Below, one piece after another: positions 13,146 through 26,364 of a DNA stretch of 43,435 bases; the first letter of the stretch is position 1, and the number at the start of each line of letters is the position of its first letter. The notes beneath the pieces were generated by a model, which had not been told where the DNA came from, made no database searches, and saw only the letters and a list, made by a program, of their open reading frames with translations. Made by a program: the position numbers and the translations under genes. The stretch is from an uncultured Opitutaceae bacterium. GTDB taxonomy: Bacteria > Verrucomicrobiota > Verrucomicrobiia > Opitutales > Opitutaceae. The stretch spans positions 1 through 43,435 of the forward strand of contig CALDFV010000186.1 in NCBI GenBank assembly GCA_937942145.1, given 5' to 3'.

Positions 13146-14486
13146 CTACGGCAAAGGTACGGAAAATATCACCGTAAAGACAAACTCGGAGCCGAGGGAA
13201 AACAGGAGTGAGAGCTGGGCAACGGGCAGCAGCTTCTGCTTGTTCCATTCTGCAAGATTGATTCCGATAAGGAAAATCGCGGGAATCGTCGCATACACAT
13301 AGGAAACGCCCAATTGTAGGCAGATAATATAGGTGAGCAGTATTGCGACTATGAGGATGGCCAACCTACTGTTCCCATAATCTGTATCTGAAATTTTGAT
13401 GCGATTGCGCCCATACTTCAGAAAGACCAAAGCGGCTAAGCAAAGCACAATCCCAATCACCCAATTGGGGAAGTGGGGCAATCCCGATGGAGGGCTCACC
13501 GCAAATCGCTTGAGCGACTCTTTTTTAACCTTCAAGTACTGATCTAATTCTTCCCCTACTCGATAGTCAGGGGTAATGGAAAGCTTCTTCAATTCGGCTA
13601 CCACAGTCGGATCCTGCCTCGCTTCGTCGAGTATTTCCTGCAGTTTGTCGACAGCAACCTGCGGCGTTCCTTTGGGAGCAAACCAGTAGTACGAGTTTCC
13701 ATTGTCGATCGCAAAACCTTGCTCCGTTGCGGTCGGAACTTCAGGGACTCCTTGGTTTCTCTCGGCTGTGAGAATCGCAATCGCCTTAATGTTCTGATCC
13801 TTAGGCGTACCTTCGGGCGAACGATAGCCCACAAACTCTCCCACTGAAAAGATCCCCACGTCCAAATGTCCGCCCAAGATGTGGGAGTACCGCTTTTGTC
13901 CTCCCCCCGTGGAAATGTAGTTGAACCTGCTGCCGGGACTCGTCTCTTCGAGCTCTTTCGCATAGAAGTAAGCAGGTGAGCCGATGTCCGCTCCGAAACG
14001 GACGCTATTCGGATTGTCCTTGGCCGCTTCGAGAAGGGAGCGGAGTCCTTGGTAGGGAGAGTCTTCGCGAACAATCAGAACCAGGGACATCGTACCCAAC
14101 TGGGCAACCGGAGTCAGCTCTTCGTATCCAAAATTCGCGATACCCGCAAGTTGAGCCGCAATCAGCGCGTCGTTGTTGCACAAGAGTCGGTAGCCGTCGG
14201 GCCGGGAACCCATGACATATCTTCCTCCAATGGTAGATCCGCCTCCAGGCTGGTTTAGGATGACAAGAGGTTGAGTATACTTCTCGTTGGCGGCGATCGA
14301 CTTTTCAATGATCCGAACAAACGTATCAGTACCGCCTCCCGCGCTGTAAGGAACCACAACCTGGATCGGCTGGTTGGGGAATTGGAATGAACCGTCGCCG
14401 CTTTTCCAATTCAAGACCTTCCACCCAAGAAGCCCGCAGATGAGAATCGAGCTCACGATCGAAAAAAGTGTTCTGCTAGAGCTCAT
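13146..14486 (-). CDS. TctC-like solute-binding protein fused to C-terminal TctB-like membrane domain
   Basis: Start revised from 14750 to ATG 14486 (4-nt ATGA overlap with TctA). N-terminal Bug/TctC: FPNQPIQVVVPYSAGGGTDTFVRIIEKSI...VILNQPGGGSTIGGRYVMGSRPDGYRLL; C-terminal hydrophobic segments WVIGIVLCLAALVFLKYG, LAILIVAILLTYIICLQLGVSYVYATIPAIFLIGINLAEW, LSLLFSLGSEFVFTVIFSVPLP. Confidence 0.85.
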   Translation of the reverse strand: MSSSRTLFSIVSSILICGLLGWKVLNWKSGDGSFQFPNQPIQVVVPYSAGGGTDTFVRIIEKSIAANEKYTQPLVILNQPGGGSTIGGRYVMGSRPDGYRLLCNNDALIAAQLAGIANFGYEELTPVAQLGTMSLVLIVREDSPYQGLRSLLEAAKDNPNSVRFGADIGSPAYFYAKELEETSPGSRFNYISTGGGQKRYSHILGGHLDVGIFSVGEFVGYRSPEGTPKDQNIKAIAILTAERNQGVPEVPTATEQGFAIDNGNSYYWFAPKGTPQVAVDKLQEILDEARQDPTVVAELKKLSITPDYRVGEELDQYLKVKKESLKRFAVSPPSGLPHFPNWVIGIVLCLAALVFLKYGRNRIKISDTDYGNSRLAILIVAILLTYIICLQLGVSYVYATIPAIFLIGINLAEWNKQKLLPVAQLSLLFSLGSEFVFTVIFSVPLP

Positions 14487-15973
14487 TCGGAGACGAGGGG
14501 TTCGTGGTGGGAGCCAGGGCCCTTTTTCTTGAGCATGGGAAGGATGAGCATCGCCAATGAGACGGCTAGAAAGGCAATCGAAATGGGGCGCGTCACAATC
14601 GGGAGCCAGGAGCCGTTCGTCGCCATCAGCCCCGCAGAGAGATTGTCCTCTGCGATCGGGCCCAAGACAAAGCCAATGACGAAAGGAGCCAGAGGTATCT
14701 TCTTCGATTCGAGAAAGAAACCCAGCCCTCCAAACGCGAGCATAACCCAAACGTCGAAAATGCGGTTCGAGAGCGCGAACGAACCGATTACACAGAACAC
14801 CAATATGACCGGTAAAAGATAGGAACTGGGGATCCGCGAAATCCTAGCGAGCCACCGCATGGAAAAGCCCATGATCATGGCCATGGCGATATTGGCCAAG
14901 AACATCGCCCCCATAATGGTGTAGACCATCTCCGGATGCTCTCCAAAAAGGCGCGGCCCGGGTTGCAGTCCATGGACGACAAGCGCCCCCAGTAGGACCG
15001 CTTCCACCACAGAACCGGGAAGCCCCATCGCCACCAAGGGAATGAGCGCTCCCCCGATCGTCGCATTGTTAGCGGCTTCCGCAGAAACTACCCCTTCATC
15101 GTGGCCCGTGCCAAACTTCTCCGGTGTCTTGGAGGAATTCTTGGCAACCGTGTACGCCGCGACCGAACCAATGTTCGCCCCAATCCCCGGAAGAAGTCCT
15201 ATCCAAGTTCCAATGACAGAGGAACGAATCATATTGAAACCCTGTCGGCGAAAGTCCGCCAGTTTCAAGGAAAGCCCCTTGGTTTCGATCTCCTTCGTTT
15301 GGGATTTCTTTTTCAAATCAATGATGTCTCTGAAAATCTGGTTGATAGCGAACAGCCCAATCAAGACCGGGAGCAGCTTGAAGCCGTCATTCAAAGCGTT
15401 GATGCCAAAGGTAAGTCGAGACTGCCCCGTCGCTGCCGCGATGCCCGGCATGGAGAGAAGTATGCCGAGGAATCCGGACAGCAGCGATTTCGACAGCGAC
15501 TTGCCACCTATGCTAGCGATTAGGACCAAGGCCATCAGAACCAGCGTAAAATACTCAAAGGGCCCAAACTTGGTAGAGAGAGTCGCAATGGGTTTCGCCA
15601 GGAGAACCAGGAATCCCCACGAAATCACTCCTCCTACAAAGGATGCCATAACCGCCAGCCCGAGCGCCTTTTCTGGCTGCCCCTTTTGAGCCATCGGGTA
15701 ACCATCGAAGGTTGTCACGATCGATGCGGGAGTTCCTGGCATGCGAAGAAGCGTCGCCGTGACCATTCCACCACTAATCGCGCCGACATAGATGCTGATC
15801 AGCAAAGTGAGGGCGTACTGGGGGTTTGCGCCATAGGTAAGTGGTAATACAAGAGCAATCAGCATCGTCCCTGTTAGACCGGGTATTGCTCCCACAAATA
15901 CGCCTAGTGAAGTACCGAGAAGTATCAGGATAAGACCGGTAGGAGTAAAGAGCAGTTGAATGGCTTCTTGCAT
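14483..15973 (-). CDS. tctA: Tripartite tricarboxylate transporter large permease, TctA family
   Basis: GTSLGVFVGAIPGLTGTMLIALVLPLTYG...AISGGMVTATLLRMPGTPASIVTTFDGYPMAQKGQPEKALGLAVMASFVGGVISW: TctA signature. Confidence 0.93.
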   Translation of the reverse strand: MQEAIQLLFTPTGLILILLGTSLGVFVGAIPGLTGTMLIALVLPLTYGANPQYALTLLISIYVGAISGGMVTATLLRMPGTPASIVTTFDGYPMAQKGQPEKALGLAVMASFVGGVISWGFLVLLAKPIATLSTKFGPFEYFTLVLMALVLIASIGGKSLSKSLLSGFLGILLSMPGIAAATGQSRLTFGINALNDGFKLLPVLIGLFAINQIFRDIIDLKKKSQTKEIETKGLSLKLADFRRQGFNMIRSSVIGTWIGLLPGIGANIGSVAAYTVAKNSSKTPEKFGTGHDEGVVSAEAANNATIGGALIPLVAMGLPGSVVEAVLLGALVVHGLQPGPRLFGEHPEMVYTIMGAMFLANIAMAMIMGFSMRWLARISRIPSSYLLPVILVFCVIGSFALSNRIFDVWVMLAFGGLGFFLESKKIPLAPFVIGFVLGPIAEDNLSAGLMATNGSWLPIVTRPISIAFLAVSLAMLILPMLKKKGPGSHHEPLVSE

Positions 15974-22018: not shown

Positions 22019-23554
22019 ATGAAACACCTTTCCAAAGTCCTCTCCCTTCTTCTTGCATCTTACTTCTTTATTCTCGTTTCAGCCACCGCCCAGCGCCCTC
22101 CCAACGTCGTGATCATTTTCGCCGACGACGTCGGCTATGGTGATACCAGCTGTTATGGGGCGACCAAGGTTCGGACCCCCCACATCGACCGGCTAGCCTC
22201 AGAGGGACGCCGCTTTACCGATGCTCACGCGGCCTCTGCGGTCTGTACGCCCTCCCGCTACTGCTTGCTAACCGGCGAATACGCCTTTCGAGGAGATCAC
22301 TGGACACCGGTATTCCTGAAAGTTGGACTGATCGTCGATCCCGAGCAAACGACCGTAGCAGATGTAATGAAACGTTCGGGATACAATACGGCCTGCATCG
22401 GTAAGTGGCATCTGGGCTTCGGCGAAGAAACACCCGACTGGAATGGGGAGCTCAAGCCCGGGCCGCTCGAGCTAGGATTCGACTACTACTTCGGAATGCC
22501 GGTGGTAAATAGCCATCCGCCCTTCGTCTACGTCGAGAATCATCACGTAGTGGGACTCGACCCGAGCGACCCTCTTGTCTATGACGAAGTAGCGGATACA
22601 CCGATACATCTGGAAAAGATGGGCATCAACCAGATCGGCGGGGCAAAGGCCGCTCATGCCCTCTACGATGACACTTATGTCGGCACAACCCTCGCGGGTA
22701 AAGCGGTGTCCTGGATCAAGGAAAACAAAGACGACCCGTTTTTCCTCTACTTCGCCACCACCAATATCCACCATCCCTTTACACCCCACCCTCAATTCCA
22801 AGGCACCAGCGAGGCGGGTCGTTATGGCGACTTCATTCATGAGCTGGACTGGATCGTAGGCGAAGTGACTCGAACGCTAGAAGACGAAGGCTTGGCCGAC
22901 AATACACTGGTCATCTTTACCAGCGACAACGGGGGAATGATTAATCTCGGTGGGCAGGACGCCTGGAAGCGAGGTCACAATCAAAACGGCGATCTGCTTG
23001 GATTCAAGTTCGACGCATGGGAAGGGGGCCACCGCGTTCCCTTCATCGCCCGCTGGCCAGGAAAAATCCCCGCTGGAACCGTATCGGATCAGTTGGTTTC
23101 CAACGTCGACCTTATCGCAACACTGGCGGCGCTGACTGACCAGGAGCTCAATGACAGCGAAGGACCCGATAGTTTCAATATTCTACCCGCACTAACCAGT
23201 AACCCCAAAACACAAATACGTGATCATCTAGTTTTGGCCGCTTTTCGGAAAACGCATCTTTCCCTAAGAGACGGTGACTGGATGTATATCCCCGCCCAAG
23301 CGGGAGGGGGCTTCAGCAGTCCAGAACTCGGAACACATGGCTTTGGCGGGTTTCCTGCTGTCGATTTTGCCGGACAGAAAAACAGCGATATGGAAAACGG
23401 AAATATAAAACCCGAAGCCCCCAAGGAGCAGCTTTACAATTTGAGAAAGGACTTTCGCCAAACCAACAACGTCATTCGCGATCACCCCGAAATCGCCGAA
23501 GCCATGAAACGGCGCTTAGACGAAATTCGTGAAGCAAACGGAACACGTCTATGA
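22019..23554 (+). CDS. Exported sulfatase (paralog 2 of tandem pair)
   Basis: Signal peptide; PNVVIIFADDVGYGDTSCYGATK; SAVCTPSRYCLLTGEYAFRGDHWTPVFLKVG; long near-identical stretches with the preceding sulfatase. Confidence 0.95.
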   Translation: MKHLSKVLSLLLASYFFILVSATAQRPPNVVIIFADDVGYGDTSCYGATKVRTPHIDRLASEGRRFTDAHAASAVCTPSRYCLLTGEYAFRGDHWTPVFLKVGLIVDPEQTTVADVMKRSGYNTACIGKWHLGFGEETPDWNGELKPGPLELGFDYYFGMPVVNSHPPFVYVENHHVVGLDPSDPLVYDEVADTPIHLEKMGINQIGGAKAAHALYDDTYVGTTLAGKAVSWIKENKDDPFFLYFATTNIHHPFTPHPQFQGTSEAGRYGDFIHELDWIVGEVTRTLEDEGLADNTLVIFTSDNGGMINLGGQDAWKRGHNQNGDLLGFKFDAWEGGHRVPFIARWPGKIPAGTVSDQLVSNVDLIATLAALTDQELNDSEGPDSFNILPALTSNPKTQIRDHLVLAAFRKTHLSLRDGDWMYIPAQAGGGFSSPELGTHGFGGFPAVDFAGQKNSDMENGNIKPEAPKEQLYNLRKDFRQTNNVIRDHPEIAEAMKRRLDEIREANGTRL

Positions 23555-26364
23555 GGGCCAAATCGTTCAAAATCCTGACCGGATTTGCACTATTTTGTAT
23601 CTGCATATCAACTTCCTCACTTTCAGCAGGAAAACCACCCAATGTCATTCTCATCCTCACTGACGACTTGGGCTATGGCGATCTTAGCTGTTATGGTTCG
23701 GAGTTCATCGATACGCCGCGTATCGACAAAATGGCGTCGCAAGGCGTACGGGCTACGGGTTACCGGACCGCCGCCAACATTTGCACGCCTTCACGGGCCG
23801 CGCTTTTGACCGGTTCCTACCCGCAACGAGTAGGGATTCCCAACGGCATCAGTCCGGCTCGGCCCGAGCATCGGCATTTAGGCCTGCACCCAAACGAAGT
23901 TACCATTCCCGAACTATTGAAGAATAAAGACTACGCTACGGGTATGATCGGCAAATGGCATCTTGGATTCGACGAAGTTTTCCACCCACTCATTCAAGGA
24001 TTCGACAGCTACTACGGCATGCCGTCCAATTTTAATCACGACAAGCGTTTCTTCAACGATCGAGAGGTGATTGAAGAAGTGACCGATCTGTCCTTGCTGA
24101 CATCCAACTACACGGAAAAGGCTGTTGAGTTTATTACAAATAATCAGCACCGTTCCTTCTTCCTCTATCTTGCTCACAACTATCCCCATGTTCCCCTAAA
24201 GCCCAATCCAGCCTACGCCGGAAAATCGCGAGGGGGCGACTACGGCGATATCATTGAGGAACTCGATGCGAGTACAGGGGTTATTCTGGATACATTGAAG
24301 GAATTGGGAATCGCTGAGAACACCCTTGTCATTTTCACGAGCGACAATGGGCCGCTTACTCGCTACGCCGGCGAATACGATTCCTCAGGACCCTTTCGTG
24401 GCAGTAAGTTCAATACCTTCGAAGGGGGTCATCGCGTTCCGGCCGTCTTTCATTGGCCCAGTCACCTACCGGCAGGTCTCGTGTGTGATACGCCCATCAG
24501 CTCAATGGACATTCTGCCCACGATCGCTGCGATTACGGGAATTCAAGTTCCAAACGATCGGGTCCTGGACGGAAGAAACGTCTGGCAAATCTTGACGGGA
24601 GAATCAGCTAACCCGCCCCGGGAAATCGACTACTACTACAACGACAACAACCTCCAAGCCATACGCAAGGACCAGTGGAAGCTTCATCTACCTAGAACGG
24701 CTGAGGACATTCCCTGGTGGCAAAAGGCTGGCAAGGAAACCTTCCTGGAATTGGACAAACCCTTTCTCGTCGATCTCTCCAACGATATTGGGGAATCGCG
24801 TAGCGTCGCCGATTCCAATCCCGAAGTAGTGACGGCACTACTACAGGAAGCTGTGGAAACGCGCCAGTCGCTCGGAAGCGCCCATTCCCACGGAGCCGAT
24901 CAACGCGAGATTGGAGACTCGAGAACTTTGGCCACGCAATCCCGCACATCCCCATCCCCGCCACCTGTGGTGAGCCTGTCGTACCGAGCCGATGGCGACA
25001 CAAAACAACCAAACTTCATTCTGATCTTTGCAGACGACCAAGGCTATCAAGACATCGGTGTATTCGGCTCTCCTAACATAAATACGCCAAACCTCGACCG
25101 CATGGCCGATGAGGGCATGCGTTTCACTGATTACTACGCCCAAACGGTCTGCGGTCCCTCCCGTGCTGCCTTGATGACCGGGAGCTATCCGCTTCGCGTA
25201 GCCACAAAGGGAAATCGGGTCGATGTTCATCCTTACCTTCATTCGAAAGAAGTAACCATTGCCGAGGTGCTGAAACCTTTAGGCTACGCCACGGCCGCAT
25301 TCGGGAAATGGGACCTCGCCGGACATTCCCAGGACCCCAAACGCTACGCCCCCGAACTGATGCCCACTCACCAGGGGTTTGACTACTTCTTCGGCACACC
25401 CAGCAGCAACGATTCACGGGCTAATCTCGTTCGCAACGAAAGCATCCTCGAGATGGAGACTGACATGAGTCAGCTCACTCGCCGCTACACTGATGAAGCC
25501 ATCGGATTTATTAAGCGCAGCAAGGACACTCCCTTCTTTATCTACATGCCCCACACGATGCCGCACATCCGTTTGGAAAGATCAAAACCATTCGAAGGCA
25601 AATCTAAAGGAGGAATCTATGGAGATGTAATTGAAGAGATCGATTGGAATGTTGGCCGCATTTTTGAAACGCTAAAAGAAGAAGGATTGGATGAATCCAC
25701 CTATGTTTTCTATATGAGTGATAATGGCCCCTGGTATCTCGGTCATAGCGAAGGCCACATTAAACGGATTGGTCCGGATGCCGAAGCCCATGGCGGTTCT
25801 GCCCTCCCCTTGAGAGGCGCCAAAACCTCTACCTGGGAAGGGGGGTTGCGCGTGCCTTGCATTATGTGGGCTCCCGGCAAAATTCCTGCAGGGGCCGTTT
25901 GTACGGAAATAGCCTCGACCCTAGACATGCTTCCTACGATCGCGAAGCTCGCAGGCGGCAACGCACCCACTGACCGAGTCATCGATGGGCATGATATTCG
26001 CGACCTCATTCATGGCGTTGAGGGGGCAAAAAGTCCAACGGATGCCTATTACTACTACCAACGCACCCAACTTCAGGCTGTCCGGTCCGGCCCATGGAAG
26101 CTCCACGTCGCGAGAACAAGGGATACGTTTTGGGCGCGTTACAGCAAACCGGAAGACGTCTTCGATATCACGAGTCCTCTACTCTTCAATTTGGAAACCG
26201 ATATCGACGAAAGCAGGGACGTTTCCTCTCGATATCCAGGTGTAGTTGATAGACTCTTACACTTAGCGGAAGGTGCCCGCAATGATATCGGCGATATCGA
26301 TCGGATCGGAGCCAACGCCCGCTTCTTCGATGACGAACCTAAACGACCCGACATCGCCAGATGA
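23551..26364 (+). CDS. Double-domain sulfatase (two complete sulfatase domains in one ORF)
   Basis: Domain 1: PNVILILTDDLGYGDLSCYGSEFIDTPRID...NICTPSRAALLTGSYPQRVG; domain 2: PNFILIFADDQGYQDIGVFGSPNINTPNLD...TVCGPSRAALMTGSYPLRV. Uninterrupted 937-aa frame; ATGA overlap with previous CDS. Confidence 0.92.
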   Translation: MRAKSFKILTGFALFCICISTSSLSAGKPPNVILILTDDLGYGDLSCYGSEFIDTPRIDKMASQGVRATGYRTAANICTPSRAALLTGSYPQRVGIPNGISPARPEHRHLGLHPNEVTIPELLKNKDYATGMIGKWHLGFDEVFHPLIQGFDSYYGMPSNFNHDKRFFNDREVIEEVTDLSLLTSNYTEKAVEFITNNQHRSFFLYLAHNYPHVPLKPNPAYAGKSRGGDYGDIIEELDASTGVILDTLKELGIAENTLVIFTSDNGPLTRYAGEYDSSGPFRGSKFNTFEGGHRVPAVFHWPSHLPAGLVCDTPISSMDILPTIAAITGIQVPNDRVLDGRNVWQILTGESANPPREIDYYYNDNNLQAIRKDQWKLHLPRTAEDIPWWQKAGKETFLELDKPFLVDLSNDIGESRSVADSNPEVVTALLQEAVETRQSLGSAHSHGADQREIGDSRTLATQSRTSPSPPPVVSLSYRADGDTKQPNFILIFADDQGYQDIGVFGSPNINTPNLDRMADEGMRFTDYYAQTVCGPSRAALMTGSYPLRVATKGNRVDVHPYLHSKEVTIAEVLKPLGYATAAFGKWDLAGHSQDPKRYAPELMPTHQGFDYFFGTPSSNDSRANLVRNESILEMETDMSQLTRRYTDEAIGFIKRSKDTPFFIYMPHTMPHIRLERSKPFEGKSKGGIYGDVIEEIDWNVGRIFETLKEEGLDESTYVFYMSDNGPWYLGHSEGHIKRIGPDAEAHGGSALPLRGAKTSTWEGGLRVPCIMWAPGKIPAGAVCTEIASTLDMLPTIAKLAGGNAPTDRVIDGHDIRDLIHGVEGAKSPTDAYYYYQRTQLQAVRSGPWKLHVARTRDTFWARYSKPEDVFDITSPLLFNLETDIDESRDVSSRYPGVVDRLLHLAEGARNDIGDIDRIGANARFFDDEPKRPDIAR

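Follow-up and report, generated by a model that had tools for sequence, protein, structure and literature searches.

A TctC-TctB fusion in a predicted two-polypeptide tripartite tricarboxylate transporter of Verrucomicrobiota

Background

Tripartite tricarboxylate transporters (TTT) are the least characterised of the binding-protein-dependent transporters (PMC11452294), and the role of their small membrane subunit TctB is unknown (PMC5812351, PMC11452294). A 43,435-nucleotide stretch of DNA from an uncultured Opitutaceae bacterium, called the window here, has next to its tctA gene a single reading frame that seems to encode both the binding protein TctC and TctB. Is this a genuine fusion, how much of TctB does it retain, and what might follow for transport?

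Results and discussion

One reading frame with two TTT domains

The fusion is one continuous frame (13146-14486, minus strand) of 446 amino acids plus stop, starting with the ATG at 14486. Pfam places TctC (PF03401) at residues 66-318 (108.8 bits, cut-off 27, E 4.7e-31) and TctB (PF07331) at residues 338-446 (39.8 bits, cut-off 29.1, E 6.4e-10), the latter over profile positions 31-137 of 137. As both domains exceed their curated cut-offs, the original prediction of a TctC-TctB fusion in one ORF is borne out. In a PDB search the binding domain matches solved Bug/TctC chains down to E 2e-31, and hhalign relates the fused C-termini to standalone TctB (98.8%, E 6e-17) in an alignment that covers only the part after the first transmembrane helix, TM1. 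The predicted likeness of the C-terminus to TctB thus passes the profile check, both by Pfam and by hhalign, yet it is not likeness to a whole TctB, for only TM2-TM5 are present.

Four parts can be told apart, all on the minus strand. A hydrophobic helix at residues 8-25 (14412..14465) is, from hydropathy and charge in 26 members, a predicted uncleaved signal anchor with its N-terminus inside. The Bug/TctC periplasmic binding domain, recognised by PF03401 and the PDB matches, takes up residues 37-325 (13512..14378). It is joined by a linker at residues 326-337 (13476..13511; mean length 12 residues in 26 members) to TctB TM2-TM5 at residues 338-446 (13149..13475), which lack TM1, have K/R-rich cytoplasmic loops and end in a C-terminus predicted to be periplasmic. 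An AlphaFold2 model of the window fusion built from three sequences (window, L006 and L007) had a pLDDT of 33.5 and was unusable.

The large permease subunit TctA (14483..15973, minus strand, 496 residues) matches PF01970 over its full length (positions 1-423, 494 bits). A PDB search gave no solved-structure homologue of it, and an NCBIfam search returned nothing informative for either protein. The predicted direct adjacency is seen in the sequence itself: the TGA stop of tctA overlaps the ATG of the fusion in an ATGA (14483..14486, minus strand). The same overlap occurs at L006, L101, L104 and L107, and at L108 with a GTG start. The locus therefore has all three profiles typical of the TTT family (2.A.80), PF01970, PF03401 and PF07331. 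It has neither a complete TctB including TM1 (the match covers profile 31-137 only) nor three separate polypeptides with a free binding protein, as TctC and TctB share one ORF; nor is it of the TctA-TctB fusion type, TctA being an ORF of its own. Judged by domain content, the window system is a putative variant of the TTT family and not a canonical three-subunit system.

Distribution of the fusion

The window genome has six TctC, five TctB and five TctA matches. Three systems are fused (the one in the window and those on C137 and C79), two are conventional TctC plus TctB pairs (C200 and C196), and one TctC, on C171, has no TctA or TctB in the surrounding 7 kb that were read. A Pfam profile search found no further TctB or TctC on the window contig; the original statement that separate tctB and tctC genes are absent is thus correct for the contig but not for the genome, which has the two separate pairs.

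The suggested survey of Verrucomicrobiota recovered 36 distinct fused sequences, which together with two truncated forms make up the 38 fused or truncated entries of our final tree. In alignment A2, Pfam detects TctC in 33 of 33 members and TctB in 31, the two exceptions being the truncated forms. A TctA partner is present and matches PF01970 in full. Each of the 11 genomes searched in the genus contains one or more TctB matches in frames of fused length, and in the order of G317 all eight TctB matches, from four of six genomes, lie in such frames. A contig scan of genomes returned only two close relatives. A plasmid collection gave 871 matching records, 13 of them covering 80% or more of the query; at the four plasmid loci examined the genes were separate and adjacent, with no fusion.

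Several individual loci are of note. The single-contig genome G489 has two fused copies with identical scores, L066 and L085 (G489:C1:950395-951717 and 4810758-4812080), perhaps a recent duplication. L020 in G089 is a decayed fusion that keeps the TctB end and a remnant of the binding domain, with no TctA adjoining. L021, from a different genome of the same order (G030), is a TctA-TctB fusion in an open frame of 642 residues.

Loss of TM1 and predicted topology

The TctB match starts at profile positions 20-41 in fused-length frames versus about 2-15 in complete standalone genes, with a few exceptions among fragmentary frames, for example L020 and L038. TM1 is absent from the TctB part of every fusion. 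By eye, standalone TctB has five hydrophobic segments (published predictions give four to five helices, PMC5812351), while those of the fusion are the N-terminal helix and TctB TM2-TM5. Mean net charges in 26 members are +1.1 for the N-terminus, -5.2 for the binding domain, +1.9 for loop ab, +1.9 for loop cd and -0.3 for the C-terminus. These values obey the positive-inside rule, so the fusion is predicted to have its N-terminus inside, its binding domain in the periplasm and its C-terminus outside. For TctB itself, Winnen et al. (cited in PMC5812351) predict a cytoplasmic N-terminus. Topology would then explain the loss of TM1, because a periplasmic protein joined end to end to an N-in TctB needs one helix fewer.

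Has this happened more than once? Maximum-likelihood trees give the same picture for the binding domain and for TctA: AU tests reject a single origin of all fusions (p 1.5e-68 for TctC, 7.4e-5 for TctA) while one origin of the main fused clade is compatible with the data (p 0.474 and 0.231, respectively). The TctC-TctB fusion thus arose at least twice in Verrucomicrobiota. The second origin is represented by L114 and L115 of family f24, which have a lipobox N-terminus and a TctB part that likewise lacks TM1; the topological argument is strengthened because the same helix was lost convergently.

Alternative explanations

The sequence comes from a MAG with 320 contigs and 88% completeness, so loss of a stop codon between two genes by sequencing or assembly error has to be considered. 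It can practically be dismissed. The architecture recurs in independent assemblies, including the single-contig genomes G329 and G489; the fused sequences are many and distinct; and a lost stop codon would not remove TM1. Close homologues in UBA5694 (91% identity), G329 (one contig, 93%) and G394/IP29b_bin.87 (75%) share the architecture, and neighbours on both sides are common to the window and L101, which is in a single-contig genome. Comparison of the window with L101 or L006 gave dN/dS values of 0.06 for the binding domain, 0.11-0.25 for the junction and 0.20-0.23 for the TctB part; the N-terminal part is also well below 1 in both of these close pairs. (With L104, which is more distant, saturation of synonymous sites spares only the binding domain.) Low dN/dS across all parts indicates that the whole fused chain is under purifying selection.

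Given a genuine gene, the N-terminal helix could be TctB TM1 itself, the binding domain having been inserted in the periplasmic loop between TM1 and TM2 of a full TctB. The position, orientation and approximate length of the helix fit, a five-helix TctB would be restored, and joining the helix to the C-terminus gained about 7-8 bits of TctB score in L088 and L091. In the window, however, the joined sequence scored 28.6 bits versus 30.2 for the C-terminus alone, whereas in real TctBs, run as a positive control by the same method, TM1 contributes 20.5 bits (median). Moreover, N-termini that resemble signal peptides or have a lipobox occur in L076-L078, L110, L112, L114 and L115, which are fused or truncated and fall outside the main subclade, and an anchor-like helix is already present in unfused TctCs such as L009, L014 and L036. 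The window N-terminus has no lipobox, and bulky and charged residues follow its helix; cleavage was judged from these residues, and the -3/-1 rule applied is a simple and permissive one. The spacing from helix to binding domain is about 9-14 residues in the fusions versus 1-3 in most sister TctCs. Insertion seems unlikely, a retained signal anchor being a more probable identity for the helix than TM1. Less probable still is that proteolytic release of the binding domain, or internal initiation of TctB, turns the fused gene into ordinary separate subunits: a TctB without TM1 would be incomplete, its first helix would need the opposite orientation, and the length of the linker is conserved.

Predicted mechanism and related systems

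The reading that we favour, with good though not full confidence, is that the window encodes a two-polypeptide TTT carboxylate importer in which the binding domain is tethered in cis to its own TctA. A TctABC-type importer would have been cut to TctA plus a translationally coupled TctC-TctB fusion, whose binding domain would be held above its own TctA by short tethers, the N-terminal helix on one side and TctB TM2-TM5 on the other, with a linker of some 12 residues between the periplasmic domain and TctB helices 2-5. Substrate would be handed over in cis, with one binding domain per TctB and no exchange with a soluble pool. With short tethers on both sides, delivery in cis is the simplest mechanism, and from the predicted architecture we infer such delivery and a changed stoichiometry. 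The original prediction set this tether against the freely diffusing binding protein of other TTT systems. The contrast is less sharp than that, tethering not being exclusive to the fusion, since several unfused TctCs of the phylum have a lipobox (L010, L033, L035) or an anchor-like helix (L009, L014, L016, L017, L036).

How does this arrangement compare with known ones? The Salmonella citrate system TctABC (TC 2.A.80) likewise has TctA, TctB and TctC domains at one locus, but in the order C-B-A and as separate chains, whereas the window has A-(CB), with a single TctC-TctB chain and a TctB without TM1. A TctA-TctB fusion is known from Paraburkholderia caribensis and is reported to be rare (PMC5812351); it joins two membrane subunits, while the window fusion joins the binding protein to the small membrane subunit. 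The TAXI-GltS proteins of Lachnospiraceae (PMC12344293), functional analogues which their authors read as tethered, resemble the window protein in having a binding protein N-terminal to the membrane portion of a secondary transporter. They differ in belonging to unrelated families, in being fused to the transport protein and not to an accessory subunit, and in coming from Firmicutes. Firmicutes presumably lack a conventional periplasm. A further functional analogue is the ABC importer GlnPQ, whose tethered substrate-binding domains are joined to the membrane domain by a 19-residue linker (PMC8025302), compared with about 12 residues in the fusion; unlike the window system it is ATP-driven and its membrane domains are unrelated. 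In lipoprotein TAXI-TRAP binding proteins the tether is thought to raise local concentration (Roden et al. 2023, as cited in PMC11574862). These are anchored to lipid, whereas the window binding domain would be anchored to a transporter subunit; the lipobox of the f24 fusions L114 and L115 suggests a similar lipid anchor there.

Reduced forms and the role of TctB

In three proteins, L076, L077 and L081, the first retained TctB helix is the last element before the stop codon (e.g. LPPLQWMVLGVVLICSVLVWMEGKKE, stop), with which the TctA start overlaps. As they are spread over three genomes and two families, the reduced form is not one sequencing error. An order survey found no PF07331 match in G018, G027 or G001, although weak TctBs could escape it. 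These loci apparently encode a two-protein TTT of TctA plus a tail-anchored binding protein, without TctB. Two lineages, then, fused TctB and kept TM2-TM5, and a third group reduced it to a single tail anchor; tentatively, TctB may be a docking or anchoring subunit.

Possible substrates

At two paralogues, C137 (= L098) and L105, an enolase-superfamily gene overlaps or abuts tctA. This gene resembles L-fuconate dehydratase and follows the fused tctC-tctB and tctA (L098:2991-4217; L105:7126-8352); for the L098 copy the match is to PDB 1yey, an L-fuconate dehydratase (E 2e-100). Its place in one operon with the C137 paralogue makes sugar acids plausible substrates, and suggests L-fuconate for transporters of the L098/L105 type. 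Sulfatases lie near the window fusion and several others, and uptake of sugar acids from the breakdown of sulfated polysaccharides is plausible from this gene context. The neighbours examined give no pointer to the substrate of the window copy itself, which is presumably an organic or sugar acid. Separately, the window has a 937-residue ORF (23551-26364) that combines two sulfatase stretches in a single chain, adjoining further sulfatase genes.

Conclusion

We found no TctC-TctB fusion described in the open-licence literature searched, nor is it presented there as a common TTT class. Natural TctC-TctB fusions give a handle on the function of the little-understood TctB, and their repeated formation with loss of TM1 shows which part of it is dispensable. 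The natural joining of binding protein and TctB in one chain opens docking, and the question whether a free pool is needed, to direct testing; a two-chain TTT would also be a simpler target for structure determination.
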